Shown in pieces: positions 16,425 to 55,165 of a DNA stretch of 64,000 bases (positions are counted from its first letter, which is position 1; the number at the start of each line of letters is the position of its first letter). The notes beneath the pieces were generated by a model. That model was not told the DNA's origin and did no database searches. It saw only the letters and a list, made by a program, of their open reading frames with translations. The DNA comes from Solibacillus sp. FSL R7-0668. GTDB lineage: Bacteria; Bacillota; Bacilli; Bacillales_A; Planococcaceae. The stretch is taken from NCBI RefSeq assembly GCF_038006205.1, contig NZ_JBBOUU010000001.1, positions 2,172,001-2,236,000 on the forward strand, given 5' to 3'. The position numbers and the translations under genes are program-made.

Positions 16425-16585
16425 TGGGGGTATGCGGTTTAATCGAATGGGAAATGGGGATTTTTGGGGATTCGCAAATATCTGTTGAATTTCGCAAATA
16501 ACCCCGAAATTTCGCAAATAAAACACATTTATCGCAAATATTTCGGAAATTTCGCAAATAAAATTCAAAAGTCGCAAATATCTCT
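16425..16585 (-). repeat. Phased-repeat element E3 (ATTTGCGA subfamily)
   Basis: On the plus strand TCGCAAAT begins at 16472, 16492, 16512, 16532, 16552 and 16572, exactly 20 bp apart six times. Read on the minus strand the array is followed by ATCCCCAAAAATCCCC and TTAAACCGCAT, matching the tail of E6. The CATCCCC block of the tail is not evident, so the tail looks truncated. The spacer CTTTTGAATTT also occurs at the same place in E5 and, with change, in E6. Confidence 0.85.
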
Positions 16586-16682
16586 CCCGCCGCACAAAGC
16601 AGATTGGCCGAGCTCACCAAATTCATAGAGAAATGACAGTGATGAGCTTTAAAATCCCGTGACGAAAAGTCGTTTCATCCCT

Positions 16683-17282
16683 TTACATTCTTTTCTTCAC
16701 TATCAATTGAAGAACTTTACTTCTCCCGTTATGACCAATGCCTTCCACTCGCTCTACTTCTACACATGCGAAATGAAGGATTTCATGTTGGCTTGCCCAA
16801 TTCTTTAGTGCGGATTCGTTGTATAAGTAGTCGATATCCTTTGGGCCACCAGTTTGATAGCGCAATTGTGCATCTTCATACACTTCCATTAAAAAGATAC
16901 CCCCCGCCTTTAATGAACCCACAATTTTATCTAACACTTCGGATTGATCCGCTTTAGCAAAATGGCCAAAAATCATGACCGCTCCGTCATATACATTTTC
17001 TTCTAAAGTGTCTTGAATTAAATCTTTTAGCTCTGTCTTCACCTGTACATCCTGTGACTTCGCTAATGCTGCCGTTTTCTGTAACCCTTCCTGTGCATAA
17101 TCAAATGCCGTCACATCATGCCCCTTTGCTGCTAAAAAAACGGCATTTCGGCCTTCACCTTCCGCATAACAGGCAATCTGTTTCGATTGTCCAAAGACAT
17201 TTACTTGTTGCTCTACAAATGCATTCGGTTTCGTTCCGTAAAAATACGTAGCTGATTTGAATTTTTCATCCCACTGGTTCAT
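16683..17282 (-). CDS. Class I SAM-dependent methyltransferase (TehB-like)
   Basis: About 199 residues with a Rossmann-type SAM site: CYAEGEGRNAVFLAAKGHDV (about 38-57, motif I with an E-G-E-G-R loop), then FDYAQEG as the acidic loop. Related proteins of this length are annotated as tellurite-resistance or thiol methyltransferases. The substrate cannot be read from sequence. The start is ATG 17282; an ATG at 17291 lies too near the AAAGGA site. The gene follows trxA across a terminator. Confidence 0.75.
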   Translation of the reverse strand: MNQWDEKFKSATYFYGTKPNAFVEQQVNVFGQSKQIACYAEGEGRNAVFLAAKGHDVTAFDYAQEGLQKTAALAKSQDVQVKTELKDLIQDTLEENVYDGAVMIFGHFAKADQSEVLDKIVGSLKAGGIFLMEVYEDAQLRYQTGGPKDIDYLYNESALKNWASQHEILHFACVEVERVEGIGHNGRSKVLQLIVKKRM

Positions 17283-17326
17283 CTTAAACATTCCTTTCGC
17301 TATCTAAAACTGATTTTGTATAAAAA

Positions 17327-17356
17327 GGGTGTCCCAAAATTTCTTTTCGGACACCC
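17327..17356 (-). terminator. Terminator of trxA
   Basis: GGGTGTCC and GGACACCC pair perfectly. On the minus strand the hairpin follows the trxA stop by 11 bp. Confidence 0.85.
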
Positions 17357-17367
17357 TCTTCACATTT

Positions 17368-17682
17368 TTATTTATTGTCGTTAATGAACTCGATTAACGC
17401 TTCTTTTGGCATAAAGCCTGCTGTTTTTGCCTTCACTTCTCCGTCTACAAATAATAACAGAGATGGAATCGACATAATGCCATATTGTCCAGCTGTCACT
17501 TGGTTTTCATCTACATCTACTTTTACGATTTTTACTTCGTGACCGATTTCTGCATCTAATTGCTCAAGGACTGGCGCAATCATTTGACATGGTCCGCACC
17601 AAGGAGCCCAAAAGTCGACTAATACCGCTCCCTCTAAAATTTCCTTTTCAAATGTTTGATCTGTTGCATGTACAATTGCCAT
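17368..17682 (-). CDS. trxA: Thioredoxin
   Basis: The 104-residue protein has the active site WCGPC (residues 28-32) in the context [18 protein letters not shown] and the cis-Pro segment MSIPSLLLF at about 73-81. Length and motifs are those of the main thioredoxin, which reduces protein disulfides with electrons from thioredoxin reductase. It starts at ATG 17682 after AGGAGG. A palindrome about 100 bp upstream could be a regulatory site. Confidence 0.95.
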
Positions 17683-17784
17683 ACGTATAGCCTCCTAAAA
17701 TTTTTAATATTTCATGACGAAATCATTTATTTGCTCACTTATGCTGTGAACAATATGTGTTCTATAAGTAGCTTATTTATAATA

Positions 17785-17802
17785 TATACCCCGGTAGGTA
17801 TA
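17785..17802 (-). promoter_or_regulatory. TATACC-N6-GGTATA palindrome upstream of trxA
   Basis: A perfect six-base inverted repeat with a CCGGTA centre lies about 100 bp upstream of trxA. It resembles the general shape of CstR/CsoR-family operators, but the centre is not the usual one. No other structure was seen in 17683-17924. Confidence 0.35.
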
Positions 17803-17924
17803 ATTTCAAGTAAATTGTCCTCACTTTTTGATAGCTGGCAAATTCTTAATAGCCATTGGGAACTGGGCCTGCACGATGTGGCGTTCTCCCCGCAGTCCCC
17901 ACAATTTAAATCGGATTGTTACAT

Positions 17925-18557
17925 TTATCGATTGTGAATAGTAATCTGAGTAGTCTCTAGCCCTAGTCGTTGTTTCAATTCTTCCGTAATTGTCAATGTA
18001 AAAGTCGCCCCTTCCGCTACATCTACATATTTATGATGGATTCCTGTGACAACGGTGCCATCTGTAACCGTTGTTTCAGTAGGTTTACCATTCAGTTTTA
18101 AATGTTCCATATAATCGCCACTTAATTTCCCTTGCATAAAGATTTCATTGGGTAACACTTGATAGACGGGCTGCCCTTCTGTCAACGAAATCTCAATTGA
18201 ATTTTCTTGTATTTCAACAATACCATTTGGCAGAACCGTTACGTCATTTACTTGCAGTTGATAGTCCCATAACTTAATTGCTACCTCTTGTAATTGAGCA
18301 TCGCTATAGCCTTCCATCAGGTCATTCATCAATTGCTTATAAAAATCCGCTTCCTCTTTCTTATAGTTCAAATCTGTTTGAATCTGCTCCAACTCTGCCT
18401 GAAGTGCCTCATTCTGCTTTTCTAATGTGTCAATTTCAGCGCTTTGTTGTTCTGAAGGCTGTGTCAAAGCATTTACTTCATCATTATTTTTTGAGTTATT
18501 ATCTGAGCAAGCAGAGAGAAAAAACATAAGGCCTAAGCATCCGATTATTCTTTTCAC
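17925..18557 (-). CDS. Coiled-coil lipoprotein, unknown function
   Basis: 210 residues with a signal peptide and lipobox LSAC (Cys 17). A hydrophilic linker and a coiled-coil stretch follow at about 40-75 (DTLEKQNEALQAELEQIQ), then a C-terminal domain of beta character. It starts at GTG 18557 with AAAGGG about ten bases upstream. Likely anchored outside the membrane. No family recognised. Confidence 0.65.
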   Translation of the reverse strand: MKRIIGCLGLMFFLSACSDNNSKNNDEVNALTQPSEQQSAEIDTLEKQNEALQAELEQIQTDLNYKKEEADFYKQLMNDLMEGYSDAQLQEVAIKLWDYQLQVNDVTVLPNGIVEIQENSIEISLTEGQPVYQVLPNEIFMQGKLSGDYMEHLKLNGKPTETTVTDGTVVTGIHHKYVDVAEGATFTLTITEELKQRLGLETTQITIHNR

Positions 18558-18688
18558 CTAATTCACACCCTTTGATTTACATTATTTAACTAAATATACC
18601 AATTGTATTACCTCCTAGCAACCTACGTTCCATTTTCTTCGTCGTTATTGAAAAGTTGTGCTATATTCAAAGTGTCAGGAGTGAGTTG

Positions 18689-19108
18689 ATGAAGAAGTTT
18701 TTAACAATTACCGCAATGATTCTTATTATTCTAGGAGCAGCTGGCTATGCTGTGTGGCTTTTTGGGACCAATATTGCTTCAGAAAAAATAATCGAAAAAG
18801 TGGAAGCTACTTTGGATGACGAAAATCTACAAGAAGTAAAATCCTATATCGAGAACGATTCGCAGGTTCAAGAAATTGTACGCGAGGCAGCAACGATAAA
18901 TCCCGATACCCTGCCCTTCCAAACGAAGGAAGAAGCGACACGTCTGTTAATAACAAAAGTGGGCGTTAATCGTTTACTTGCTATTCAGGAACAAGCGCAA
19001 AACGGTTCCATGAGTAAGGATGACGTATTATCCGAAATTGAAGGTACACTATCTGAAGAAGAAATTTCCGCTTTAAAATATGTTTTATATAAGGAACTGA
19101 ATAAGTAA
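18689..19108 (+). CDS. Membrane-anchored hypothetical protein
   Basis: About 139 residues: an N-terminal membrane segment (residues 4-24) and an acidic helical domain, with the repeated idea EVKSYIENDSQVQEIVREA and a C-terminal DDVLSEIEGTLSEEEISALK. The start is ATG 18689 behind AGGAGTGA; an upstream in-frame start lacks a site. Family not recognised. Confidence 0.6.
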   Translation: MKKFLTITAMILIILGAAGYAVWLFGTNIASEKIIEKVEATLDDENLQEVKSYIENDSQVQEIVREAATINPDTLPFQTKEEATRLLITKVGVNRLLAIQEQAQNGSMSKDDVLSEIEGTLSEEEISALKYVLYKELNK

Positions 19109-19131
19109 TACTTACATTTGTAAGGTAGAAA

Positions 19132-19161
19132 GGCTCGATTCCAAATTAGCGGAATCGAGCC
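19132..19161 (+). terminator. Terminator between convergent genes
   Basis: GGCTCGATTC and GAATCGAGCC form a perfect 10-bp stem followed by GTTTTTAT. Confidence 0.88.
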
Positions 19162-19199
19162 TGTTTTTATTTTGTTTCCAACCATTCATTTGAAACGAT

Positions 19200-20381
19200 C
19201 TATTCAAATCGTTTTCTCACACAACTAAAGTAGATTGCAGACAGTAGTAAAAGTACCCCTGCACCAATGAAGAGCCATTGTACAGAGATGATAGTTGCTA
19301 ACGCCCCAGCTAACAAGGTTGATAAGCCAAATAGTAGCGATGTTAAAACACCTTGGGCACTATACACTTTTATGAGCTGATCATCTGTTGCCTTTAATTG
19401 AAGCCATGTGCCAAGTAGGATCCCTTTGAATTGGTCAAAAACACCAAATAATGCGCTTAATAGTAGTGCTACGACCGCCACTTCGTTTAATCCAAATGCT
19501 AACAGTACAAGCGCAACGGCGAATGATGAAATGATCACAATGTTTTTTAAATTTCTCTCAAAAACTTGTTCGAATTTGGTACAAATAAAGCCACCGATTA
19601 GCAAGCCCATAAAGAAAGCAGTATTAATATACCCCCACCATGCCTCAGATGCATGTAATACATCGGCAACAAAAAGATACATAATAGCTGCAACCCAAAC
19701 GACATTTGCAATGGATTCAAAAATAATCATTACGTGAATTGTACGGAAGGAATGATTTTCCCAAATCAAACTAAATCCCTCCGTTAATTGTTGTTTTTTC
19801 GTAACGTTCTTTTTTCTTTCGAATGGCTTGGAATCTTTTATGAGAATAATAAATAGGGTCGATAGGACAAATAATAGCAACGTCATCCAAATGACCATTT
19901 CTCCACTTGTCGCTGCCACAAGTATCCCACCAAGTGCCCAACCACCAAGCTGTGTCAATTCATTCAGCATGGATAAAATACCATTTGCCCGTAGAAGCTG
20001 TCCCTTTTCTACGATTCGAGGGAGAAGCGCGGTGCTAGCTGGAAGTGCAAGCCCATCTAAAAAAGCAACCGTAAAAATGATGATGAATATAAAAAATAAT
20101 GATAATTGAAAAAGTGATGCTACTGCCAAAATCAACAACAAAATTGTTTTGAATGCTTGTGAAATGACAAGCAATTGTTTTAGGCGGTAACGATTGAATA
20201 GCAGTGGTGCAAGACTGCTACTAATCATGCGACCAGTCATATTTAAAAATGGTAATAATGCCATATAGAATGGCGATTCGCTTGCTTGATATAAAATAGA
20301 AATTAACCCAACAATATATAAAACGTCACCTAAATTTGCGAATAGCTGACTAATCCATAAAAAATGAAACGATTTTCTCAT
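19200..20381 (-). CDS. MFS transporter, probable drug efflux
   Basis: About 393 residues with twelve hydrophobic segments and a central cytoplasmic loop near 185-200 (KDSKPFERKKNVTKKQQL). It resembles the macrolide-efflux-like MFS group (MFS_3). The FLDGLALPASTALLPRIV region (about 108-125) is typical of that group. The start is ATG 20381, with AAAGGG eight bases upstream; a GTG two codons earlier is too close. Substrate unknown, and a role in multidrug export is inference from family. Confidence 0.75.
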   Translation of the reverse strand: MRKSFHFLWISQLFANLGDVLYIVGLISILYQASESPFYMALLPFLNMTGRMISSSLAPLLFNRYRLKQLLVISQAFKTILLLILAVASLFQLSLFFIFIIIFTVAFLDGLALPASTALLPRIVEKGQLLRANGILSMLNELTQLGGWALGGILVAATSGEMVIWMTLLLFVLSTLFIILIKDSKPFERKKNVTKKQQLTEGFSLIWENHSFRTIHVMIIFESIANVVWVAAIMYLFVADVLHASEAWWGYINTAFFMGLLIGGFICTKFEQVFERNLKNIVIISSFAVALVLLAFGLNEVAVVALLLSALFGVFDQFKGILLGTWLQLKATDDQLIKVYSAQGVLTSLLFGLSTLLAGALATIISVQWLFIGAGVLLLLSAIYFSCVRKRFE

Positions 20382-20534
20382 CTTCACTACCCTTTCTTGT
20401 AAAAAAAATTAAAAGGTAGTTAAACTTACACTCGTATCTCCTCCAAGTCATTCCTTGTATCATGATCGAATAGGTACATAATTGACTCACTTGATTCACA
20501 ATAAATAACATTTTAGTTTTGGTAGGAAGATGAA

Positions 20535-20766
20535 TCATCACCATACGTTGGGGATGACTTGTAGTTTCATTTAATATGATTTAAAACCGAGGAAATATTG
20601 GGTATTTTCGGGCACTCGCACGGAAATAGGCTAAAATCGCACGCATTTCTCAAAAAACGCACGTAAATTTAAAATATCGCACGTATCTGGCGTAAAACCG
20701 CACATAAACCTGGAAAATTCGCACGTAAACCTGGAAAATTCGCACGTAAACTCAAAAATCGTTATA
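20535..20766 (-). repeat. Phased-repeat element E4 (TTTACGTGCG subfamily)
   Basis: On the plus strand the core CGCACG (one copy CGCACA) begins at 20617, 20638, 20658, 20678, 20699, 20720 and 20741, spaced 20 or 21 bp. The tail at 20535-20610 includes ATCACCATACGTTGGGG and ATGACTTGTAG. That is the same block as in E2 (CATCCCCAAC) and E6 (TATGGTGATGA), but with a different core sequence. No gene is present. Confidence 0.8.
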
Positions 20767-20986
20767 CTCTAGAAACTAGCATTTTCTACAAAGTTTAAAC
20801 ATTCTTACAAGAATAACCACTTTCACAAAAAATAACAAGTACTTATTGAAAACTTTACTTATCAGCAGTATATTCTAAAGAAATTAATGTACTTTCATTT
20901 TGAATACATCCATTCGAAATCATTATTTTTTTCATTGCATCATTATCATTCCAGTGATACCTAAGTAGGATTTTGCTTTGATTTCA
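20767..20986. other. Intergenic stretch without a visible gene
   Basis: AT-rich sequence between element E4 and the zinc-ribbon gene. I see no ribosome site with a long frame, no strong hairpin and no repeat core. Confidence 0.5.
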
Positions 20987-21214
20987 CTATTTGTGATTTA
21001 ATGGGGTTTCTGGTCGTTTGGCGCAATATTTGCAAGTAGGATCACCACAATTTGATTCCATCCAACGATTACATTTATCACAAAAATAACTATCAAAATC
21101 ATCGTAATATACTAAATTAAACTTGCATTTGGGACAGAATTTATCCGTTTCAATTTGACCATAAAATTCAAAATCCCCTATCCTCACCTTGCCGCATGCC
21201 TCTGTTATGTTCAT
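20987..21214 (-). CDS. Small zinc-ribbon protein
   Basis: About 75 residues with three CxxC/CxxxC-type pairs: FCPKCKF, FCDKCNRW and DPTCKYC. These would bind one or two zinc ions. The start is ATG 21214 with GGAGGG seven bases upstream; an in-frame start at 21229 overlaps it. The protein is acidic apart from the metal sites. Partner unknown. Confidence 0.65.
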   Translation of the reverse strand: MNITEACGKVRIGDFEFYGQIETDKFCPKCKFNLVYYDDFDSYFCDKCNRWMESNCGDPTCKYCAKRPETPLNHK

Positions 21215-21380
21215 TAAAACCCTCCACAAAACTATTTAAACAACATTTATGTAATTGAATATTAATTTAACATATATTAGGTACACCACCAAATCAAGGT
21301 TTCGATGCGATTAATGTATCTTCATTTTGCTTTATGCGTCTATAATTATAGAAATTCCTAACACAAAAGGGGTGAAATAA

Positions 21381-21644
21381 TTGAAAAAAGTCATATTTGG
21401 AATAACTAGTCTCGTTTTCGTATTCTTAATAATCTATTATTTAGTTCCTACTATAATAATGAACGATGTAAAAAGTAAGGTAATTGAAAAAAATTCGGGC
21501 ATCGAAAACATTGTAACGATCAATCAAACAGGTGCATGGGGAGAATGGTTTCTAGAATTTGTATTAGTTGTTGAAATAGAGGGACAGCCATTTCGTATTT
21601 GGGTAGATCGTAGCGGAGATATTACAGATAAGGAGCAGCTATAA
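21381..21644 (+). CDS. Membrane-anchored hypothetical protein
   Basis: 87 residues beginning at TTG 21381 behind AAAGGGGTG. One N-terminal membrane segment (4-25) is followed by a small extracellular domain (INQTGAWGEWFLEFVLVVE, IWVDRSGDIT). The family is common in Bacillales as uncharacterised short proteins; I cannot name it. Confidence 0.55.
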   Translation: MKKVIFGITSLVFVFLIIYYLVPTIIMNDVKSKVIEKNSGIENIVTINQTGAWGEWFLEFVLVVEIEGQPFRIWVDRSGDITDKEQL

Positions 21645-21683
21645 TTCAGTTGAAAATGCTGCCCCTTTATTCAATCTTTTGCC

Positions 21684-22526
21684 TCACACACTTTCTACCG
21701 TTTCCTTCACAAACGCTTCAAATTGCTCCAGCTCTTCAATATAAGGATTGTGATTGGATTGTTCAAATACGGTTAACTGTGCATGTGGTAACAATTTGGC
21801 TATTTCATATGTAAACTCAATTGGACATTGTGCATCATAGCGGCCGCCAAATATATAGCTTTGAATCGTAATGTTTGCTAATGCTGAACGAACATCATAA
21901 TTTTTCACTTCTACTTTTCTAAAATAATCAAGCGCTGGACCGACTGTTTTGCCACTGTTCGGAAGGGATAGTGTCAGCTTTAATTTTTCCTCATTGTAAT
22001 ACGACATTAATGACCATTCATACGAGAGCTTTTGGCGTTGTTCCACAGGTGTAGCGGGGTTATTTAAGAGCTCCATAATTTCTATGATGCGCGCAAAATT
22101 CGGATTGTCCGCGCAATACATGCTTTCAGGGTGACTTGCATAAGCCTTACTCGCCGCTGTACAGCCCGCAATTATTTTCGTTAAAGCGTGTGGTGCTAAA
22201 ATCGCATATTGTAATGCCAGCATGCCACCTGTAGAATGCCCGGCAAATGCCCATTTTTCAAAGCCTAATGCCTCGCGAATTGCCTCTAAATCCTTGATGA
22301 TTTCTGAAAAAGCCATTTGATTATCTGCTGTGACTGGTGATGAATTTCCTGCACCGCGCACATTGATTAAAAACACCACATAATGCGCTGTAAACGGATT
22401 GGCAAATAAATTGCCCCGTGCATCAAATTGTGAAAAATAATGCGTAATTGCAAGAGGTGCACCTTGCCCTTTTGTAAAATATTCAAATGTTCCACGCTTG
22501 GTTTCAATGATATGCTGTTTCCACAT
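21684..22526 (-). CDS. Alpha/beta hydrolase
   Basis: 280 residues with the nucleophile elbow GHSTGG (Ser at about 96), an acid in FGGRYDAQCP (about 228-237) and the final His in QSNHNPY (about 257-263). The oxyanion motif is near residue 28. It resembles proline iminopeptidase-like hydrolases, but the substrate is not deducible. It starts at ATG 22526 after AGAAGGCGAG. The GNAT gene upstream on the same strand ends 28 bp away and may share a transcript. Confidence 0.8.
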   Translation of the reverse strand: MWKQHIIETKRGTFEYFTKGQGAPLAITHYFSQFDARGNLFANPFTAHYVVFLINVRGAGNSSPVTADNQMAFSEIIKDLEAIREALGFEKWAFAGHSTGGMLALQYAILAPHALTKIIAGCTAASKAYASHPESMYCADNPNFARIIEIMELLNNPATPVEQRQKLSYEWSLMSYYNEEKLKLTLSLPNSGKTVGPALDYFRKVEVKNYDVRSALANITIQSYIFGGRYDAQCPIEFTYEIAKLLPHAQLTVFEQSNHNPYIEELEQFEAFVKETVESV

Positions 22527-22554
22527 AGACTCGCCTTCTTTTCTTAAAATAGTA

Positions 22555-23076
22555 TTACGATAATTTTTCTAACACCGTATCCACACTGTTCCACACATAC
22601 ACTTCTTCGTCGATTGGTACTCCATCAAACGTAATTGAAATGGTTTTCAAATACTCCGCGCCGTAGTATTTGTAAAACTCACGTGACGTATTGTCTGCTA
22701 ATACCTCGACATATACTTTATGAAAGCCTTGATCTTTAAATGTATGCATGATCTGTTTTAATAAAAGCTTTCCGACGCCCTTCCCTTGCCACTGTTCTAA
22801 TAAATAAATGGCCGATAAATCGGTAGCACCCGGCTCTGTATTTGTATCGCGCTTTTCCCCTACAACAAAGCCGATAATTTCCTCGTTTTCCTCTGCAACA
22901 AATACATTTCTAGCAGGATTGGCCAAATTATTTTGCCAAAGCGTTGTCCGTTGTTCATAGCTTAGCTTGTCTAAAAAGCTTTGTGGAATAATATTTTTAT
23001 AGGTCGTGCGCCAGCTATCCACATGTACTTTTGCGATATTGGGTGCATCTTCTTGTTTTGCTGTTCGAATGATCAT
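22555..23076 (-). CDS. GNAT-family N-acetyltransferase
   Basis: About 173 residues with the acetyl-CoA loop QGKGVGKLLL at about 109-118 and a preceding LSAIYLLEQW strand. The substrate is unknown; the overall form is RimI-like. The start is ATG 23076, seven bases after GGGGGA. An ATG two codons upstream is too close to that site. Upstream of the alpha/beta hydrolase on the same strand. Confidence 0.8.
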   Translation of the reverse strand: MIIRTAKQEDAPNIAKVHVDSWRTTYKNIIPQSFLDKLSYEQRTTLWQNNLANPARNVFVAEENEEIIGFVVGEKRDTNTEPGATDLSAIYLLEQWQGKGVGKLLLKQIMHTFKDQGFHKVYVEVLADNTSREFYKYYGAEYLKTISITFDGVPIDEEVYVWNSVDTVLEKLS

Positions 23077-23152
23077 ATCCATTCCCCCTCTAAGTTTGTT
23101 ACATTTGATAATTTACAGAATTTATACGATAATCCGAGTGCATTTTTGCTTT

Positions 23153-23638
23153 TTATTTCCAAACAGTATCTAATTTATCTGAATAGAAATCTATTGCTTT
23201 TTTATATTTAAGTATTTCATCATCCGTTGTTGTATTAATTAAACAGTTAAGTAATAATTCCATTGCTTTGGTATGTTCATTCAAATTATATAACGTCATC
23301 GAATAAAATGTCTGAATAGCCCTGTTATTTGGGAATAATTCAATTCCCTTTAAAAATACATTTTTTGATTTTTCATATTCTCCTAATGTCCTATACGTAC
23401 TCCCTAATCCTAATAAAGCTCCTTCTAATTCCTTCGAAGACAAGCCTAATTGAATACTTTTCTCATAAAAGGGGACTGCCTGTAATTCTTTTCCTAATAA
23501 ATCAAAACTCCAGGCACATTGATAGTTAATCGATGCATTTTCAGGGAAATCCTGCACTAGTTCCAGTAGTAATTCATTAGATTCTTTATAATTTCCATTT
23601 TCCCGTAAATCAATTGCTTTTTCTAATCTTATTCCCAC
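23153..23638 (-). CDS. Tetratricopeptide-repeat protein
   Basis: 161 residues forming four TPR-like helical hairpins (GNYKESNELLLELVQDFPEN, GKELQAVPFYEKSIQLG, GEYEKSKNVFLKGIELFPNN, NEHTKAMELLLNCL). The protein is probably a small cytoplasmic adaptor. It starts at GTG 23638 after AGGGGGAC. Partner unknown. Confidence 0.7.
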   Translation of the reverse strand: MGIRLEKAIDLRENGNYKESNELLLELVQDFPENASINYQCAWSFDLLGKELQAVPFYEKSIQLGLSSKELEGALLGLGSTYRTLGEYEKSKNVFLKGIELFPNNRAIQTFYSMTLYNLNEHTKAMELLLNCLINTTTDDEILKYKKAIDFYSDKLDTVWK

Positions 23639-23726
23639 AATCCCCGTCCCCCTTTTGTTTTAAGCACTGTAAATTTCATAAATCAAATTGAACCGCAATA
23701 GCAAATTCGCTTATTTCAACCATTTT

Positions 23727-24014: not shown

Positions 24015-24084
24015 CCCTTTTTATCTTTATTGTTAGTATACAGTTTATCTACCCATAATTTCACATATATTCAGATAATTTATG

Positions 24085-24170: not shown

Positions 24171-24260
24171 CATGTTTTCACTTACCGATTTTCCCCCTGA
24201 GTTTTCAGCGCGATGTAAGGTAAGTGAAAATTATTTATGCCAAACGAATAGAACGCCTAA

Positions 24261-31914: not shown

Positions 31915-32090
31915 GGGGAGTTATTTGCGACTTTTGAGTTTTATTTGCGAAATTTCCGGTATATTTGCGATTTCCATAGGTTATTTGCGAAATTATGAAG
32001 ATATTTGCGATTTTTAACATATATTTGCGACTACCTAAAAATATCCACCACTTTTTAATAAAACCGCAAGTCATGCTCAACTTAAGGTAA
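31915..32090 (+). repeat. Phased-repeat element E5 (ATTTGCGA subfamily)
   Basis: ATTTGCGA begins at 31923, 31943, 31963, 31983, 32003 and 32023, exactly 20 bp apart. The tail ACCTAAAAATATCCACCAC, TTTAATAAAACCGCAAGTC and ATGCTCAACTTAAGG parallels that of E6. The five spacers match those of E6 in order (CTTTTGAGTTT against CTTTTGGATTT, AATTATGAAGAT against AAATATGAAGAT). The two arrays therefore descend from one ancestor rather than arising independently. Confidence 0.88.
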
Positions 32091-41483: not shown

Positions 41484-41697
41484 GAGGGGGTGTCCGAGAA
41501 GTGATTCTGGGACACCCCCTTGCGCCGAGGATGGAGGCCAGCACGATGCTGGTCATGAATGCGTTGTCACACGACGTGACGGTTTTAGCATTTGTACCTA
41601 TTTCAACCACCGCGAAAAGCAGCCTGCAGCGGATAATTAATACACGAACGAAGCACTGCGCTAAAAGTATTTACTTTTGGCGCAGCCCCCTCTTTTT
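41484..41697 (+). ncRNA. Candidate structured RNA, GC-richer than its surroundings
   Basis: Four stems follow one another: GGGGGTGTCC with GGGACACCCCC (about 41485-41519); GCCAGCA (41537-41543) with TGCTGGT (41547-41553); GTCAC with GTGAC (41566-41580); and CTGCGCTAAAAGTA (41656-41669) with TACTTTTGGCGCAG (41672-41685). The last runs into CCCCCTCTTTTTATG and looks like a terminator. The first may simply end the LysE transcript. A 73-codon frame across the region is not convincing. No known RNA family is recognised. Confidence 0.4.
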
Positions 41698-47711: not shown

Positions 47712-49087
47712 AAACATTGTATACGAAATTCGTCGTCACAACGATTGCTATAATAATTTTTAGTAGTTTAACGGCTTTTTTCCTTTCGAATTTATATTAT
47801 CAATCTTCATTAAAGCCTCAAAACGATGCAAAAACAACCGGCCTTGCTGTGGAAATGGTGCAATATATCGAAGCACATCCAGAGCTCCCCTTACAAGATT
47901 ACTTACAGCATAGTGCGGCGACTGGCTATCACATTATACTAATTGATAGCCAGTTTAACACTTCTATGTACGGGGAGCCTTTTCGTGACACGTCGCTTGA
48001 CCAAACAACCTTGGAAATGGTGCTGAATGGGAACATCTATCACGGTATCGCAGAGTTTCCACATCAAACATTTGTCACAGGCTTTTTTGCCAATGAGGTG
48101 AAAAATTCGATTGGCGTACCTTTACAATATGGGAATGAAACCTATGCCTTCTTCTTAAGACCGAATATTAAGCTTGCCTTTAACGAAATGCATTATCTAT
48201 TTGCTGCGCTCATCATCTTTACGATTTTGCTAAGTATTATTCTCGTATTATTGAGTACGAAATTCATCGTAAAGCCAATTAAAAAATTGAAAGCAGCTAC
48301 ATCTTCCATCGCCAACGGGAATTATAATATTCAATTAGCTACTCGCAAAGATGAGTTTGGCCAGCTGTCGGAAAGCTTTATGCATATGGCCAATAAGCTG
48401 TCTTATGTAGATGAACAGCGCAAGGAATTCATCTCGAATATTTCGCATGATATTCAGTCCCCTTTATCGAATATTAAAGGCTTTATGACATTAATCGAAA
48501 AAGAATATCATCTTGATACACCTTATACAGCTTCGATTCATGCGGAGATTGATCGACTTTCAACGCTAACAAATCAATTATTACAGCTGACGACATTGGA
48601 TCAACAGGAACGTAGCGCCACATTCAAAAGCTATTCATTGGACGAGCAGCTCCAAAAGCTCATTCACCAATACCAATGGCAATTTCAGCAAAAGGAGCTT
48701 ATGGCTAGTTATTCCCTACCCGCAACAATGATTTACGGCGATAGTGAATTATTAAATATGGTGTGGGATAACTTACTGTCCAATGCCATTAAATATACCA
48801 ACGAATTTGGTATGATTAGCATTCAAATACAGCAAAATTCAGATAGTATTTCAGTCATTTTCCGTGATAGCGGCATTGGGATTCCCGAACAGGAGAAGCA
48901 GCGCATTTTCGATCGCTTTTACCGCGTCGATTCTGCCAGAACACGCACAATCGAAGGGACAGGCCTAGGCTTAGCGATCGTCCAACAAATCGTTCAACTG
49001 CATAATGGCACCATTGATGTAGAAAGTACACTCGGTGAAGGGACAATAATTACAGTGACGATTCCGCAGCATGACACGAATGACTAG
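47708..49087 (+). CDS. hssS: Heme sensor histidine kinase
   Basis: 459 residues: membrane helices at about 9-29 and 165-187 flank an extracellular domain. That domain has YGEPFRDTSL, IYHGIAEF and FVTGFFANEVKNSIGVPL, all close to HssS. HAMP, the DHp box SNISHDIQSPLSNI and the ATPase boxes (DNLLSNAIKYTN, DSGIGI, GTGLGLAI) follow. It overlaps the hssR stop by four bases (ATGA). A second, broken copy lies at 51367-52733. Confidence 0.88.
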   Translation: MKTLYTKFVVTTIAIIIFSSLTAFFLSNLYYQSSLKPQNDAKTTGLAVEMVQYIEAHPELPLQDYLQHSAATGYHIILIDSQFNTSMYGEPFRDTSLDQTTLEMVLNGNIYHGIAEFPHQTFVTGFFANEVKNSIGVPLQYGNETYAFFLRPNIKLAFNEMHYLFAALIIFTILLSIILVLLSTKFIVKPIKKLKAATSSIANGNYNIQLATRKDEFGQLSESFMHMANKLSYVDEQRKEFISNISHDIQSPLSNIKGFMTLIEKEYHLDTPYTASIHAEIDRLSTLTNQLLQLTTLDQQERSATFKSYSLDEQLQKLIHQYQWQFQQKELMASYSLPATMIYGDSELLNMVWDNLLSNAIKYTNEFGMISIQIQQNSDSISVIFRDSGIGIPEQEKQRIFDRFYRVDSARTRTIEGTGLGLAIVQQIVQLHNGTIDVESTLGEGTIITVTIPQHDTND

Positions 49088-49101
49088 TTGTAAAATTATG
49101 T

Positions 49102-49130
49102 TTGAATTTCACCTCATAACATGCCATAAT
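49102..49130 (+). promoter_or_regulatory. SigA-type promoter of the ABC-F leader
   Basis: TTGAAT at 49102-49107, a 17-base spacer, and CATAAT at 49125-49130. Transcription would begin near 49137, just upstream of the leader peptide. Confidence 0.65.
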
Positions 49131-49136
49131 AGCATT

Positions 49137-49324
49137 ATCTAATTTGAAGGGACGATGAATGGCCAATGAATTTATAATTCTATTTTACACGTAAAATGTA
49201 TACGCATTTTCACTTAAAATAGGATTAGTCTGCCCATTTATACTACCTTGATAATGCCGTTTTTTCGGCTTATTTACGTATACCTACTAATCCTTCTGAT
49301 GATTCAGGAGGATTTTTTTATTTG
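49137..49324 (+). promoter_or_regulatory. Ribosome-mediated transcription attenuator of the ABC-F gene
   Basis: Four pairing segments are visible. Segment 1, AATTCTATTTTA (49176-49187, inside the leader peptide), pairs over 12 bp with segment 2, TAAAATAGGATT (49215-49226). Segment 2, AGGATTAGT (49221-49229), can instead pair with segment 3, ACTAATCCT (49286-49294), helped by GTATACG (49198-49204) with CGTATAC (49277-49283). Segment 3 otherwise forms a terminator, AATCCTTCTG with CAGGAGGATT (49289-49314), followed by T5. Stalling on the leader would cover segment 1, free segment 2 and prevent termination. Confidence 0.8.
49159..49194 (+). CDS. Leader peptide MANEFIILFYT of the ABC-F attenuator
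   Basis: An 11-codon frame with GAAGGG eight to ten bases upstream, ending in TAA at 49192. Its 3' half overlaps pairing segment 1 of the attenuator. A four-codon frame (49155-49169) overlaps it in another phase and is an alternative. Translation by a drug-stalled ribosome is the expected trigger. Confidence 0.65.
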   Translation: MANEFIILFYT

Positions 49325-49368
49325 AATAATGCGTATACTTTCAAATTTAATCTTTGGAGGTATGCTGA

Positions 49369-50823
49369 ATGCCAATAGAAATGAAACATGTAACGTTTAG
49401 CTATGACACATTAGATCAAGCACTTTTTTATGATGTAAATCTGACATTTGATACGAAATGGAAATTAGGGCTGATTGGGCGCAATGGTCGTGGGAAAACG
49501 ACGCTACTACAATTATTGATGAACAAGCGCCCATTTAGTGGAGAAATTTTTAGCGACGAGGAATTTGTTTATTTCCCACAAACGATTCACGATCCGACAA
49601 ACATTACCTATTATGCAATTGATGAAGTGACGCCAGTGGAATTGTGGCAATTGGAGCGTGAATGTCAGCTGCTTGGACTAGGTAAAGAGCTGTTATGGCA
49701 GCCGTTTGAGCAGCTTTCAGGTGGTGAGCAAACGAAAGTATTACTTGCCGCGCTGTTTTGCGATGATAGCCGATTCCCCCTACTTGACGAACCAACGAAT
49801 CATCTTGATATGAAAGCCCGTACTACTGTTGCGAATTATTTAAAAAGGAAAAAGGGCTTTATCGTTGTTAGCCATGACCGCGCGTTTGTTGATGAAGTAG
49901 TAGATCATCTGTTAGTTATTGAAAAGAGCGACTTGAAGCTCTATAAAGGCGATTTCACAACCTATGAGCAGCAAAAGAAACTACAAGATGAATTCGAAAT
50001 GGAGCATAATCGTTCGTTAAAATCAGAAATCGACCGCCTACAAAAAACGGCGCGAGAAAAAGCCGATTGGGCGAATCAACGTGAAAAACCTTCTGGAAAC
50101 GACCCATTTGGTAACGCCATCGCCAAACGCATGAATAAACGGGCTAAAGCCATCGAAAAGCGCACAACTGAAAAAGTGGAAGAAAAAACAAAGCTACTAA
50201 AAAATATCGAAACGGTCAGCGATTTAACGATCAACTGCCAGTTCAGCCACCGTAACCCAGTGCTGCGTGTAAGGAATTTTACATTAAGCTATGACGGTAT
50301 TCCCCTTTTCAAACCACTCACGTTTGAAGTTCTACAAGGTGAGCAAGTGGCGATTGTTGGACCTAATGGTAGTGGCAAAACGTCGCTATTATCGTATTTG
50401 CAAGGAACATTTACCGGCGAAGTACATGGTGAAGTTACGATGCCTCAAGGACTGACACAAAGCGCAATTCGCCAGCAGCATCAAGACAATGTTGGGGTGC
50501 TGAAGGATTTCGCGGATACACAAAGCATTGATTACACATTATTTTTAAATAACTTACGCATTTTAGGTTTTGGTCGTGATGTATTTAATGTTGCCATTGA
50601 GCAGATGAGTAATGGCCAGCAGAAAAAGGTTGAATTCTCAAAATCACTTGGCTTGCCTGCCGAACTGTATATCTGGGATGAGCCGCTGAACTACTTAGAT
50701 GTCTTTAATCAGCAGCAAATCGAGGCCATGCTTACACGTTTTAAGCCAACACTGCTATTCGTTGAGCATGATTATTCCTTTGTAAAGTCTGTTGCGACGA
50801 AGATTATCACACTAGAAAATTAA
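49369..50823 (+). CDS. ABC-F ribosomal protection protein (Lsa/VmlR-like)
   Basis: 484 residues with two ATPase domains and no membrane segment. Domain 1 has GRNGRGKTT (about 36-44), LSGGEQTK and LLDEPTNHLD. A charged helical linker (about 200-285, QREKPSGNDPFGNAIAKRMN) follows, the interdomain arm that reaches the ribosome. Domain 2 has GPNGSGKTS, a degenerate MSNGQQKK signature and IWDEPLNYLD. This pattern fits the Lsa/Vga/VmlR group, which displaces lincosamides, pleuromutilins and streptogramin A from the ribosome. It starts at ATG 49369 after GGAGG. The attenuator upstream supports drug-inducible expression. Confidence 0.85.
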   Translation: MPIEMKHVTFSYDTLDQALFYDVNLTFDTKWKLGLIGRNGRGKTTLLQLLMNKRPFSGEIFSDEEFVYFPQTIHDPTNITYYAIDEVTPVELWQLERECQLLGLGKELLWQPFEQLSGGEQTKVLLAALFCDDSRFPLLDEPTNHLDMKARTTVANYLKRKKGFIVVSHDRAFVDEVVDHLLVIEKSDLKLYKGDFTTYEQQKKLQDEFEMEHNRSLKSEIDRLQKTAREKADWANQREKPSGNDPFGNAIAKRMNKRAKAIEKRTTEKVEEKTKLLKNIETVSDLTINCQFSHRNPVLRVRNFTLSYDGIPLFKPLTFEVLQGEQVAIVGPNGSGKTSLLSYLQGTFTGEVHGEVTMPQGLTQSAIRQQHQDNVGVLKDFADTQSIDYTLFLNNLRILGFGRDVFNVAIEQMSNGQQKKVEFSKSLGLPAELYIWDEPLNYLDVFNQQQIEAMLTRFKPTLLFVEHDYSFVKSVATKIITLEN

Positions 50824-50847
50824 ATTTCAAAAACTATATACCCATAC

Positions 50848-50882
50848 TAAAAGCCTACTTATTTTTCGCAAGTAGGCTTTTA
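50848..50882. terminator. Bidirectional terminator
   Basis: TAAAAGCCTACTT and AAGTAGGCTTTTA form a 13-bp stem between convergent genes ending at 50823 and 50888. Confidence 0.88.
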
Positions 50883-50887
50883 GGCGT

Positions 50888-51289
50888 TTATTTGTCCTCC
50901 ACTGCCTTCAGTGTAAAGGTAATCCAAATAAAAATAACATAGCTAATTAATAAAATCGAACCGCCAACGATGAAGAAAATCATTGTGAATGTTTCGTTGA
51001 AGTTAAATGGATTGACATTGTAAAACAGCATGCCGACCGTTAAGCCAATTGTTCCTAGCACTGCTGTCCAACCATGCAAATGCACTAATTTTTTTGATTT
51101 CACAGTAAATGTTCGATAAAACAATGCCCAAACAGCAAGTGATAGCCAGCCGACAACAAGGATATGTGCGTGTACAGGGCGCAATGCATAGTTCCCACTG
51201 CCTGACATATCTGAACCAATGACCGCACCAATTAATCCAAAAATTGCGGCTAAACGAATGTAATGAATACTCCACTTTTTCTCTACCAT
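50888..51289 (-). CDS. Small heme-copper-oxidase subunit I-like membrane protein
   Basis: About 133 residues with four membrane segments. The motif RPVHAHILVVGWLSLAVWAL (about 38-57) resembles the H-x-H heme-ligand helix of cytochrome oxidase/NorB subunit I, but the protein is far shorter than a catalytic subunit. It may bind heme or be a regulatory relative. The start is ATG 51289 with GGAGGG upstream. Immediately upstream are a direct repeat like the HssR box and a broken hssRS pair, suggesting heme-linked control. Confidence 0.65.
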   Translation of the reverse strand: MVEKKWSIHYIRLAAIFGLIGAVIGSDMSGSGNYALRPVHAHILVVGWLSLAVWALFYRTFTVKSKKLVHLHGWTAVLGTIGLTVGMLFYNVNPFNFNETFTMIFFIVGGSILLISYVIFIWITFTLKAVEDK

Positions 51290-51321
51290 ATAAATACCCT
51301 CCATAAAATTGATTTATAGAA

Positions 51322-51354
51322 AGTATAGAATGCGTATCTGAACTCAATCTGAAC
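51322..51354 (-). promoter_or_regulatory. HssR2-type direct repeat and -10 box
   Basis: On the minus strand GTTCAGATT, two bases, then GTTCAGATA (51354-51335): the same 11-bp period as the HssR box upstream of hrtB, with a different core (GTTCAGAT against GTTCATAT). TATACT follows at 51327-51322. It lies between the end of the second kinase gene and the oxidase-like gene. Confidence 0.7.
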
Positions 51355-51366
51355 AAGCAGGAATTT

Positions 51367-52733
51367 TCAATAAATCGGAAATGTTAATGTAAATTTCGTA
51401 CCCACGCCCTTTTCACTTTGCACAGCAATTGTTCCATCATGCATATCCACCACCTGCTTCACGATAACAAGCCCTAAACCCGTGCCCGTTGTCGATCTTG
51501 CTTCATCCCCCCGGTAAAATGGCTCAAAAATCCGCGTGATCTGTTCCTCACTAATACCTTGCCCCTCATCTTGAATGACGAGCTCGATTTCTTTGTCACA
51601 CACTTTTCCTATCACATTAATTTCCGTGTTTGCCTCGCTATATTTCACCGCATTACTTAGTAAATTGTCGATGGCATGGACGATAAATGGCTCACTGCCG
51701 TACATTTCTAGTGACTCAAGGTCCAGCCAGACAGAAATATTTTTTCGCTGAAGCAAAAACTGTTGCTCACTCACAATCTGTTTGACAATGGCGTCAAGCA
51801 GGAGCTTTTCTTTTTGCTCTGCTAGCTTTGTTGCACTTTGCCATAATAAGAGCTGCTTCGTTAAATGCGATAGCCGCTCACTTTCTCGCTCAATAATTTC
51901 CCCATAGTGCTTCGTGCGCGCAGCATCTGCATTTTGCTGCTGAATAAGTGACGCGTAGCCACTAATACTTTGCAGTGGCGTTTGAAAATCATGCGACACA
52001 TTGCGAATAAACTCTTTACGAATTTCCCGCTGCTTTTTTAATTCCTTCGTCATTAAGTTAAAATTCGTCGCGAGCTGGCCGATTTCATCTGCACGATCTA
52101 TATCAATATGCGCATCAAAATTTTCTGAGGCGACTAATTTTGTTGCTTTTGATAGGCGCTGAATCGGTTTGACTAAGTACCACGCCGCTAAAATCATTGC
52201 AATAATACTTACAGCTGGAATAAAAATGAAAAATCCGCCAATAATAAAGTGCATTTCACTAAATAAGAGCTTAATATCTAAACGCATAAACAAGGCATAT
52301 TTTTGCCCTTCATATTCAAATGGCAGCCCAACTGTATTTTTCAAATCATTTGAAAAATAGCCTGTAATGAAGAGCTGCTGTGGGTATTCCCAACTCCGTG
52401 ATATATTTCGCCAGCTAAAACGCGGTCGATTTCAGCTGTTGCTAACTCCTTTAATCGGTATTCCTCCCCATAAAAGGCACGATTTCCAACTTCATCTGCT
52501 AAATAAATTTGATAGCCAATTTGACCAAGCTGCGTTAAATACGCGTCTAGCGAGTCTGGCGTGTGCGTTTCAATGTATGTTGTAATATCAGTTGCAATCT
52601 GGACGTAATTGGCATCGTTTTTTTCCTTCATCACCTGGTGGTAAAATGCGTTCGTTATTAAAAAACTAAACATGGCGCTAATGACAAAGGTCGCCAGTGT
52701 AAAGATAATAAATTTACTGTAGAGTGTTTTCAT
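51367..52733 (-). pseudogene. Second HssS-like sensor kinase, frameshifted
   Basis: The first frame begins MKTLYSKFIIFTLATFVISA at ATG 52733 and covers the first helix and half of the sensor domain, to GEIYHGV. It then runs out of frame near 52400. A second frame resumes PQQLFITGYFSNDLKNTVGL and covers the second helix, HAMP, DHp (NVSHDFQTPLQS), and ATPase boxes (DEGQGI, GTGLGLVIV) to 51367. One missing base near 52405 explains the break. All domains are otherwise intact. The sensor domain is clearly HssS-like (FYGEEYRL, YHG). Confidence 0.8.
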
Positions 52734-53392
52734 GAATGACCTCAGTTTGATAGCCGACATTGCGAATCGTTTTAATGGACACATTGCTTTGTAAGCGCGT
52801 CAATTTTTCTCGTAGGCGCTTAATATGGGTGTTTAATGTGTCATCACTCACAATATCCCCCCCATACAAGCTCCATAATATGGGCGCGTTCATATACACG
52901 GCTTCGGCTACATAAAAGCTCTAGCAGCTCAAATTCTTTATTCGGCAGCACAATGGAAATATGTCCTTTGGCAACCTCAAACTGTGCTCGATTTAATGTT
53001 AAATCACCTATTTCTAACTTGGCAATCGTTAATTTATCGTAACGTCGCAAAATCGCCTGCACCCGAAAAAGCAGTTCCTCGGATTCAAATGGCTTGACAA
53101 TGTAATCATCCGCACCTGCCGAAAACCCTTCCCGCTTATCCTGTAATTGGCCTCGCGCGGTAAGCAGTAGCACCGGTATTTCCCAATCTTCCTTTAAACG
53201 CTTCGTCAATTCAAAGCCGTTTAAAACTGGCATCATCACATCAACAACAGCAATATCCACCGTTTCGTCCATCAAATCCAGTGCCTCTCCCCCGTTGCTC
53301 GCCATAATTGTTTCATAATGCCATTGCTTAAAATATGTCGCCAATAAATTTAATATTGCTTCATCATCATCGACTAATAAAATCTTTCTCAT
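52714..53392 (-). pseudogene. Second HssR-like response regulator, frameshifted in a G7 run
   Basis: The main frame runs from ATG 53392 through the receiver (VDDDEAILNL, VVDVMMP, VKPFES) and most of the winged helix to MELVWG. There a run of seven G (plus-strand C7 near 52857-52863) shifts it to a stop. With six G the frame continues GDIVSDDTLNTHIKRLREKL and on to VGYQTEV, ending at 52714. The kinase ATG lies 20 bp inside this end. The distal frame is open only if the indel is corrected. Confidence 0.8.
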
Positions 53393-53721
53393 CTATGCCA
53401 GTCTCCCTTTTCGAGTTGTGCACTGGGCGCAAATACAATAAGAATCGCGCTTATTACTGCTAAATCTATTTTTCACATTAGCATGACAAAATTTGGATTG
53501 CAACTTCCATCTAAGCATTTTTTGCATTTAGTTGGATATACTATGCTCGATGCCATTATCAACTATATCAAAATAATAAATTAGGCAATGTAAAGTGACA
53601 TCTTTTAAAAGAAGTATTTTTCATACACCTTTGTGTCTATTTCGTTAAAGATGTATTTTGTATATTGCTTTAAAAAAGGAATAGGCATATATTTTAGTTA
53701 TCACGAAAGGACGTGTTCAGC
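53393..53721. promoter_or_regulatory. Divergent intergenic region upstream of hmp
   Basis: No gene is visible. The stretch is very AT-rich. GATGTATTTTGTATATTGC at about 53648-53666 is a loose dyad that could be an NsrR-type site, as expected for nitric-oxide control of hmp in Bacillales, but the match is weak. AAAGGA precedes the hmp start. Confidence 0.3.
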
Positions 53722-54930
53722 ATGTTAGACAAACATACAATCGACGTTATTAAATCAACAGTACCCGTTTTAGAAGTACACGGCGTAGCCATTACCAAAA
53801 CTTTTTATAGTAATTTATTTAAAGACAATCCGGGTTTATTAAATATTTTCAACCATACAAACCAATCACAAGGTCGTCAACAAACGGCATTAGCCAATAC
53901 GGTATATGCCGCTGCCAAACATATCGACAACTTAGAGCCAATCGTTCCTGTTGTTGTACAAATTGCACATAAGCATGTAAGTCTGGGCGTTTTACCAGAG
54001 CATTACCCAATCGTTGGGAAATATTTACTTGCAGCAATTAAAGAAGTATTAGGCGATGCCGCAACAGATGAAATTATCGAGGCATGGGGCAAAGCATACG
54101 GGGTGATTGCGGACATCTTCATTTCTGTTGAAGAGGATTTATACAAGGCAGCTGAGAATAGTGGCGGCTGGCGTGCATTTAAGCAATTCAAAATAGCGCG
54201 CACAGAAGAAGAAAGTGATGAAGTAACATCCTTCTACTTTGTACCTGTGGACGGCTCAAAAGTACCAGCGTATAAGGCGGGGCAATATGTATCGCTCCGT
54301 GTAACAGTACCTGGTGAAGAATACATGCTAAATCGCCAATATACATTATCTCAACCAAGCAATGCACAGGAATTCCGTATTTCTGTCAAGCGTGAAAATG
54401 CTGATCATGTAAAGGGGAAAGTATCCAACTTCCTACATGACGCCGCTGTTGGCACGATTGTTGATATCAGTAATCCAGCAGGTGTTTTCATTTACGAGCC
54501 GACACAAGCACCTGTGTTATTCATAAGTGGCGGGATTGGTGTAACGCCTTTAAACGCAATGTTCCAATCAATCGACCACAAGGAAAATGTAGCATTCATC
54601 CAATGTGCTCGTAACGAAAAGGTTTTGGCATTCCACGAGGATATCCAAAACAAAATGAACGCATTAAATGGTCCAACTGGCTTAAAGAAACTATTTAGCG
54701 CATTCAAAAAAGACAGTAACGCACATCATAAAGTATTATACTCAGATAACAATGAGTTCATTAATGCTAATGTATTACGTCCGACTTTAGCAAAGGATAC
54801 ACAAGTCTATCTGTGCGGACCTGTGCCATTTTTAGAAGCATCGATTAACGCATTACATGAATGCAACATACCTGACAGCCAAATTCACTTTGAATTCTTC
54901 GGCCCAGCGATGCAATTGAATACAAAATAA
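53722..54930 (+). CDS. hmp: Flavohemoglobin (nitric oxide dioxygenase)
   Basis: About 402 residues in three domains. The globin covers about 1-140, with proximal His in IAHKHVSLGV. The FAD-binding barrel covers about 150-255, with YKAGQYVSLR and LNRQYTLS. The NAD-binding domain runs from about 265, with SGGIGVTPL and YLCGPVPFLE. The enzyme converts nitric oxide to nitrate using NAD(P)H and O2. The start is ATG 53722; a GTG three codons earlier is closer to the ribosome site. It lies beside the heme-sensing genes. Confidence 0.93.
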   Translation: MLDKHTIDVIKSTVPVLEVHGVAITKTFYSNLFKDNPGLLNIFNHTNQSQGRQQTALANTVYAAAKHIDNLEPIVPVVVQIAHKHVSLGVLPEHYPIVGKYLLAAIKEVLGDAATDEIIEAWGKAYGVIADIFISVEEDLYKAAENSGGWRAFKQFKIARTEEESDEVTSFYFVPVDGSKVPAYKAGQYVSLRVTVPGEEYMLNRQYTLSQPSNAQEFRISVKRENADHVKGKVSNFLHDAAVGTIVDISNPAGVFIYEPTQAPVLFISGGIGVTPLNAMFQSIDHKENVAFIQCARNEKVLAFHEDIQNKMNALNGPTGLKKLFSAFKKDSNAHHKVLYSDNNEFINANVLRPTLAKDTQVYLCGPVPFLEASINALHECNIPDSQIHFEFFGPAMQLNTK

Positions 54931-54974
54931 AAATCGAAAAAGTATACTAGGGCACTCATTTCTTTGTGCTAGGA

Positions 54975-55165
54975 AAGATATTTGCGACTTTTGGATTTTA
55001 TTTGGGAAAAATCTAGGATATTTGCGATATTCTAAAGTTATTTGCGAAAATATGAAGATATTTGCGATTTTCTCCATATATTTGCGAATACCCAAAAATA
55101 CCCATTATCATTTAATAAAACGGCATGCTATCCCCAATTTATGGTGATGACATGCCGTTTTTGTG
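54975..55165 (+). repeat. Phased-repeat element E6 (ATTTGCGA subfamily)
   Basis: ATTTGCGA begins at 54980, 55000 (changed to ATTTGGGA), 55020, 55040, 55060 and 55080, exactly 20 bp apart. The tail ATACCCAAAAATACCCATT, AAAACGGCATG and CTATCCCCAATTTATGG follows, then a terminator-like closing hairpin. Spacers match E5 in order. It lies between hmp and the Rpn-family gene. Confidence 0.88.
55117..55163 (+). terminator. Hairpin closing element E6
   Basis: AAAACGGCATG (55117-55127) pairs with CATGCCGTTTT (55151-55161) around the conserved TATCCCCAATTTATGGTGAT block, and T residues follow. It could end an RNA made from the array, the hmp message, or the convergent Rpn transcript. Confidence 0.65.

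Follow-up and report, generated by a model that had tools for sequence, protein, structure and literature searches.

What keeps short direct repeats about two helical turns apart in the intergenic DNA of a Bacillus relative, and does the pattern extend beyond a single locus? The question is raised by a 64,000-nucleotide stretch of the genome of Solibacillus sp. FSL R7-0668 (hereafter the window and the host genome, respectively; positions 2,172,001-2,236,000 of a 3.99-Mb contig that, according to Pfam, begins at dnaA), which contains six phased arrays of short cores. These look like representatives of an apparently undescribed family of interspersed, iteron-like, replication-oriented arrays; no description of them was found among the open-access papers listed in literature searches. 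With a probability that we put at roughly one half, they are polar, helically phased docking sites for a putative, chromosomally encoded DNA-binding protein.

Phased arrays and their cores

The arrays of the window fall into three core classes, namely A, TCGCAAATA (three arrays), B, CGCACGTAA (one array), and C, CGAGCATAA (two arrays; Table 1). A preliminary description of this DNA had reported six elements of one repeat family, each with five to seven cores at a strict period of 20-21 bp followed by a common tail. All six elements are present and exceed chance: a core-agnostic scan for phased chains of at least four units recovered 18 different 6-mers in the window, whereas 20 Markov shuffles gave none, and of seven other step ranges applied to the real window, six yielded nothing and the seventh (9-12/19-22) recovered the same arrays. 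The three arrays said to advance in exact 20-bp steps over six units (those at 16472, 31922 and 54979, all of class A) do so, and five of the arrays contain 6, 6, 7, 6 and 6 units, whereas the one at 11162-11231 has only four recognisable units. The phase is borne out in the host genome as a whole, where exact pairs of TCGCAAATA number 85 at periods of 19-21 bp and 1 at periods of 22-38 bp, this single pair being located at the edge of an array; the single repeat, however, gives way to the three core classes. The supposed tail comprises two separate things, ATACCCAAAAATACCC, which on the array strand is a short leader (GGGTATTTTTGGGTAT) ahead of the first core in classes A and B, and CATG..ATCCCCAA..TATGGTGATGA, which is a terminal inverted repeat (TIR) resembling those of miniature inverted-repeat transposable elements (MITEs).

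The general form of the core is CGNNNNTAAA, the commonest version being CGCAAATAAA, and the array unit amounts to approximately one helical turn of conserved core and one turn of free spacer. Cores placed 20 bp apart share one face of the DNA, as had been proposed, only at 10.0 bp per turn; at 10.5 bp per turn, each unit is rotated by about 34 degrees relative to the preceding one. Isolated copies of TCGCAAATA in 289 kb of the host genome number 6 versus 5.8 expected, three leading and three lagging, and because such cores are non-polar and occur at the chance number, it is the array rather than the word that constitutes the unit. Exact pattern matching detects 26 class A arrays in the host genome, and 31 were used after the addition of weaker ones from other scans. 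Seven of the 31 are located at 2.17-2.36 Mb (less than 5% of the contig) and six at 0.65-0.75 Mb; classes B and C, read only in the fetched stretches, add arrays to both clusters.

Distribution, constraint and orientation

According to the preliminary description, the elements would come down to chance or decay if related genomes lacked them or if the 20-bp spacing failed to hold from copy to copy; instead, copies are widespread and the spacing persists. Three class A units were sought in 84,980 species genomes, and the 43 stretches obtained belong to Bacillus infantis, Metasolibacillus (two), Robertmurraya korlensis, Cytobacillus eiseniae, Gottfriedia luciferensis, Bacillus sp. J37 and AFS041924, and two Bacillaceae/Bacillus bins (the named records). 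At E<=0.001, a sequence-only profile of five units (R1), for which 35 of 58 candidate arrays served as input, has matches in 85 of the 261 genomes of the order and in 12 of 19 genera, with 47 genomes reaching E<=1e-5 by hand count; some of the weak matches are not arrays, those of L295 (in genome G119) and L301 (in G035) resembling coding sequence. Depending on the lineage, the steps are 20 bp, 21 bp or mixed, all close to two turns of DNA. In G259 they are 21, 21, 21 and 39 bp (the last being 21+18, with a variant unit), such that five units span 102 bp, with a mean of 20.4 bp. Unit numbers in the arrays that were read range from 2 to 8 in the host genome, B. infantis and the genus g8; other genomes have longer arrays, with as many as 53 units in G032 and 63 in G259. 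The arrays of G259 (L167, L272-L277), including the one of 63 units, are made of a 102-bp higher-order repeat.

The core word is lineage-specific. At the loci read, a single word is used in G150 (CGCAAGTAAA, 4/4), G117 (CGCAGATAAA, 2/2) and G259 (TCGCAA(A/G)TAA, 7/7), and the first two of these words, together with CGCAAACAAA, CGCACATAAA, CGCTGATAAA, CGCTCATAA, GAACGCCAATAAA and GTTGCAATTAAA, were read at the weaker loci in a similar phase. In G032, B. infantis, G259 and G282, the sharing of upstream flanks between arrays does not exceed shuffled levels; short leaders exceed these levels in G000, G129, G149, G150, G163 and two J37 arrays, in a comparison for which the script may have taken a second array of L114. 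The occurrence of the same word at unrelated places in several genomes points to recognition in trans, and a single recogniser acting in this manner appears likelier than the copying of one unit.

Cores are also conserved at individual sites. In six pairwise comparisons at three sites in g8, substitutions affect 15 of 310 core positions, 117 of 255 spacer positions and 415 of 1730 flank positions, gap columns excluded; resemblance to the consensus served to locate the cores, and L191 and L221 each enter twice, so that the Fisher p-value of this comparison is not based on independent data. Directly after the array in L173 and L174 lies a short palindrome-like stretch, CGCTTTTCGCTTGCGAAAAGCATCC, which resembles a repetitive extragenic palindrome (REP) and recurs many times across the g8 genomes.

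With dnaA placed in 28 genomes, orientation relative to replication was counted in 12 near-closed ones outside the host (G032 and 11 genomes of 1-4 contigs), and in this set 51 of 54 arrays point with the replication fork. The gene baseline, taken from stretches of four of these genomes, is 47 leading genes out of 67. The count for the 11 genomes is 32/35 at E<=1e-5, 40/45 at 1e-4 and 55/64 at 1e-3; G032 contributes 20/20 among the matches listed, or 19/19 without one near the antipode. These counts use partly rounded genome lengths, a terminus set at the antipode, and match positions and gap labels entered by hand; any array closer than 8% to the antipode was left out (one at E<=1e-5, three at 1e-3 and one in G032), and one of the three matches counted against polarity is the coding-like L295. 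The genomes G063 and G136 stand outside this set, and for G063 only matches on contigs with dnaA were entered. Where neighbouring genes converge or diverge, their direction is uninformative by geometry, so that only tandem gaps count for co-orientation with genes; in the former gaps, 11/11 arrays of four other genomes and 12/14 of the host genome point with the fork.

Gene context was assigned to 62 arrays outside the host genome, of which 25 lie in convergent, 24 in tandem co-oriented, 7 in tandem opposed and 4 in divergent gaps, with 2 unassigned; genes are longest open reading frame (ORF) calls rather than the output of a gene finder, and the set, although limited to one array per locus, includes orthologous pairs (L173/L174, L169/L177), so that the counts are not fully independent. 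The 38 classified arrays of the named records comprise 11 convergent, 16 tandem co-oriented, 4 tandem opposed and 7 divergent cases. Co-orientation in tandem gaps accordingly amounts to 24/31 and 16/20 in these two sets and to 5/13 for class A of the host genome. In 35/50 cases outside the host genome, versus 5/50 controls, the co-oriented upstream gene is set apart from the array by a terminator-like hairpin, in a scan that overlooks some terminators clear by eye (L173, L095).

A putative binding protein and competing explanations

A cooperative DNA-binding protein, as had been suggested for these elements, fits best because the two-turn phase is held across genera, cores are kept while spacers drift, and isolated cores occur at chance; the sequences themselves establish the phase, the dependence on the array, the constraint on the cores, the lineage-specific words and, in most genomes tested, the polarity, and from these we infer that a protein binds the arrays, that it binds them as duplex DNA and that it acts at the level of the chromosome. 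With cores at every second turn, one asymmetric subunit (or dimer) would occupy each core and contact its neighbor head to tail. Binding would require the array, with single cores giving no signal. Outside the host genome, most arrays occupy gaps adjoining gene 3' ends, often past a terminator, and their placement is such that the directional nucleoprotein filament would point the way the replication fork moves. The polarity suggests that the role is most likely one in chromosome organisation, or that of a cue to fork or translocase direction, and not one at the neighbouring promoter. A wider version, under which a fast-diverging protein with lineage-specific words would mark direction along the whole chromosome by polar filaments from origin to terminus, the arrays being rewritten in each genome to follow its specificity, is doubtful. 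If docking sites they are, relatives of the well-studied Bacillus carry an undescribed, sequence-specific, direction-aware chromosome element, and some of the intergenic DNA of at least a dozen genera gains a name. Co-evolution of protein and DNA could then be followed in a natural experiment, that of the change of core between lineages at constant phase; owing to the two-turn spacing, a pull-down with a synthetic array would make the binder directly findable.

Several observations weigh against docking sites. The binder was not found, and a scan of 10 of the 11 neighbours of the window arrays turned up no gene family indicative of a function. At a given site, arrays are dispensable, being present at 7/30 loci read at one g8 site, with four different core words among the seven, and at 3/30 at another (46 and 44 genomes matched, respectively; 30 loci read at each). 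Duplication also contributes to array structure, as is evident from the alternating spacers and 18-bp steps of some lineages, and several words coexist in some genomes (A, B and C in the host genome, two in G132, and one odd locus of five in G129). Polarity declines at the looser cut-offs given above and is weaker in the host genome, where class A points with the fork in 23/31 cases (GC-skew terminus near 1.9 Mb) or 24/31 (midpoint terminus) and in only 8/13 tandem gaps; the corresponding figures are 2/4 for class B, 6/8 for class C and only 3/6 for the arrays of the window. In two fragmented genomes agreement is incomplete: two of five arrays on the dnaA contig of G063 oppose the fork, as does the only array of G136. 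The 3'-end rule is not followed by class A of the host genome (5 convergent, 5 tandem co-oriented, 8 tandem opposed, 9 divergent; n=27), and 7/38 arrays of the named records are divergent.

Known systems offer partial parallels to such docking sites. Like the arrays, plasmid iterons and ParR centromeres are made up of direct repeats in one orientation, 5-7 in number and spaced by about two helical turns; the arrays differ from them in occurring in many copies per chromosome and in having a conserved part of only ~10 bp. Iterons are furthermore tied to a replicon origin, whereas neither a Rep (replication initiator) nor a partition family was recognised among 10 of the 11 neighbouring window proteins scanned. 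Runs of direct repeats are bound cooperatively at LytTR sites. RemA and BldC bind direct-repeat runs cooperatively, and RemA, whose protected tracts recur at 10-bp intervals, probably wraps DNA round a ring (PMC8481266, PMC5859096). RemA and BldC set a precedent for cooperative binding to direct repeats, although the identity of these or the LytTR proteins with the putative binder is not supported; the sites of RemA are described as poorly conserved (PMC8481266, PMC5859096), in contrast to the array cores. The TAACTGA direct repeats of Beggiatoaceae and others resemble the arrays in being intergenic runs of one short word with a patchy distribution, and are suspected binding sites; in Microcystis, eight sets between stop codons all have the same chromosomal orientation (PMC4679880). 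Those repeats are heptamers with indels in 7-nucleotide steps and, in the first genome studied, are mostly found just before start codons; a two-turn phase is not among the features described in the sections consulted (PMC4679880).

The best of the alternatives, although somewhat doubtful, is a selfish or self-expanding repeat that would grow and shrink by slippage or recombination and spread by transposition or gene conversion, its strand bias resulting from replication-coupled amplification or insertion. Such a repeat would account for the variation of unit number at apparently orthologous sites (20 in L115 versus 42 in L095; 27 in L139 versus 15 in L098), the alternating spacers with a 40-bp period, the higher-order repeat of G259, the patchy occupancy in g8, the short common leaders, and the MITE ends and 8-bp duplications of copies of classes B and C. 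Slippage alone, however, would yield a different word at each locus, and the recurrence of the identical core beside unrelated flanks (G032, B. infantis, G259, G282), the retention of cores while spacers diverge faster than flanks, and the near-two-turn phase across genera all speak against such a repeat. Origin from a plasmid or phage likewise finds no match in two plasmid queries and one phage query, which is weak evidence given that the low-complexity filter was on; a viral scan for two units hit four contigs, only one of which (L160) has a third, imperfect unit, close to the chance expectation by our estimate.

It is unlikely that the arrays function as RNA, that is, as read-through or dedicated transcripts whose numerous identical single-stranded sites would titrate a protein that binds RNA, the sponge envisaged in the preliminary description. 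Direct repeats in a single orientation, purine-rich spacers in several lineages and the co-orientation with tandem genes outside the host genome would suit such transcripts. This reading is disfavoured because eight folded arrays show no consistent fold (z from -2.1 to +3.0) and a terminator precedes the array in 35/50 cases; in addition, polarity tracks replication where genes give no cue, and a flexible RNA would not need strict two-turn spacing. A structured small RNA was rejected on the same folding results, and so were known Rfam families, the two Rfam matches of the window being located elsewhere.

Quite improbable is a topological sink comparable to the bacterial interspersed mosaic elements (BIMEs) of Escherichia coli, under which the arrays would serve gyrase or a nucleoid protein by bending or wrapping the DNA at gene ends, where supercoils generated by transcription accumulate. 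The convergent and 3'-end placement outside the host genome and A-rich blocks ~10 bp apart within the 20-bp unit in G032, G000 and B. infantis are compatible with wrapping, but the A-block at the spacer end is not retained in g8 lineages, wrapping needs less than a specific core of 9-10 bp, replication polarity would not be predicted, and the location rule is not kept in the host genome. As for placement at gene 3' ends, a trait of REP and BIME repeats, divergent gaps account for 4/60 classified arrays outside the host and 7/38 in the named records, but for 9/27 of host class A. REP and BIME repeats are palindromes, whereas the array cores are non-palindromic direct repeats. Interspersed, intergenic placement is common to the arrays, BIME/REP and the STAR repeats (see also PMC3733652).

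It is very improbable that the arrays load or orient the translocases SpoIIIE, SftA or FtsK as clustered versions of the FtsK orienting polar sequences (KOPS) or SpoIIIE recognition sequences (SRS). These guides, together with the architecture imparting sequences (AIMS), are similar to the arrays in the short asymmetric motif, the leading-strand bias (51/54 here, and 23/31 for host class A) and a word that is said to vary among Firmicutes (PMC5357621). They are, however, dispersed single motifs, KOPS occurring about once per 13 kb (PMC5357621), whereas here the signal resides only in phased arrays, isolated cores being neither enriched nor polar, and with tens of arrays per chromosome (at least 20 in G032 and 31 used in G000, among the matches listed) the arrays are sparse by comparison. 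A CRISPR (clustered regularly interspaced short palindromic repeats) array, already dismissed in the preliminary description, is rejected here as well, the core being 9-10 bp, the period mostly 20-21 bp and the spacers 10-12 bp, as opposed to repeats of at least 24 bp with unique spacers of similar length.

Terminal inverted repeats and other features of the window

The MITE-like tail had been attributed to most of the six elements; the inverted repeat is clear in three (the 11065, 20535 and 54975 elements), degenerate in the 20-320 element and not clear in the other two. TCATCACCATAAGTTGGGGATGACATG and its partner are the TIRs of an element, ~280-300 bp long, that surrounds class C arrays and a single array of class B. 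Copies of classes B and C combine such TIRs (GGCTCATCACC...) with target duplications, as MITEs do; judged by eye, the 8-bp duplications are perfect at 2172k and 2261k in the host and at L089 in a sibling, matched at 7/8 positions at 665k and 2333k, and ambiguous at the host copies 643k, 713k and 2183k. The ends are presumably ISL3-like. As the carrier of all arrays, they were rejected, given that there is no common upstream flank in G032, B. infantis, G259 and G282. The same inverted repeats hold unrelated contents in five sibling genomes and another array in one (G015, L064); because the ends enclose other sequence in siblings and an array in G015, they are a module in their own right, which acquired arrays within this genus.

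Table 1. Arrays, leaders and terminal repeats of the window (window coordinates)
Feature	Position	Strand	Details
MITE-like element carrying the 134..245 array	23..322	+	ends GGCTCAT..GGTGATGAACC; 8-bp direct duplication TGTTTATT at 15-22 and 323-330
Class C array	134..245	+	6 units CGAGCATAA; steps 21, 20, 21, 21, 20 bp
MITE-like element	11068..11345	-	TIR 11319-11345 (-); right TIR from 11068 (+)
Class C array	11162..11231	-	4 recognisable units; additional decayed units toward 11250
Leader GGGGATTTTTGGGGAT	16456..16471	+	abuts first core of the 16472 class A array
Class A array	16472..16580	+	6 units TCGCAAATA; every step 20 bp
Left TIR TCATCACCATACGTTGGGGATGACTTG	20535..20561	+	right end not recognised
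Class B array	20617..20749	+	7 units, CGCACGTAA-like core; steps 20-21 bp
Class A array	31922..32030	-	6 units; every step 20 bp; leader from 32031 (+ strand)
Class A array	54979..55087	-	6 units, one core TCCCAAATA; every step 20 bp
Leader, reads ATACCCAAAAATACCC on + strand	55088..55104	-	adjoins the 54979 class A array
TIR-like sequence TCATCACCATAAATTGGGGATAGCATG	55124..55150	-	within a CGGCATG hairpin

In the siblings G004, G005, G007, G011 and G012 (L065-L093), the inverted repeats surround GC-rich contents (TCCGTTCTGCTACG...) of ~200-650 bp, and the MITE-like family with such contents is abundant in the genus. An autonomous partner of the ends was not recognised in nine fetched stretches. 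Two ORFs in the 2.07-kb copy of the MITE-like element in L109 encode HTH_Tnp_1, HTH_21 and rve domains; they are read as an IS3-type insertion inside this copy.

The two Rfam matches of the window, ncr1575 and Bacillaceae-1 RNA, at 49134-49319 (+) and 41538-41604 (-), are unrelated to the arrays. The window also contains a duplication, 58501-59800 and 61359-62658, with 1200 of 1300 positions identical at this offset and ORFs of equal length (107, 112 and 131 aa) in each copy.

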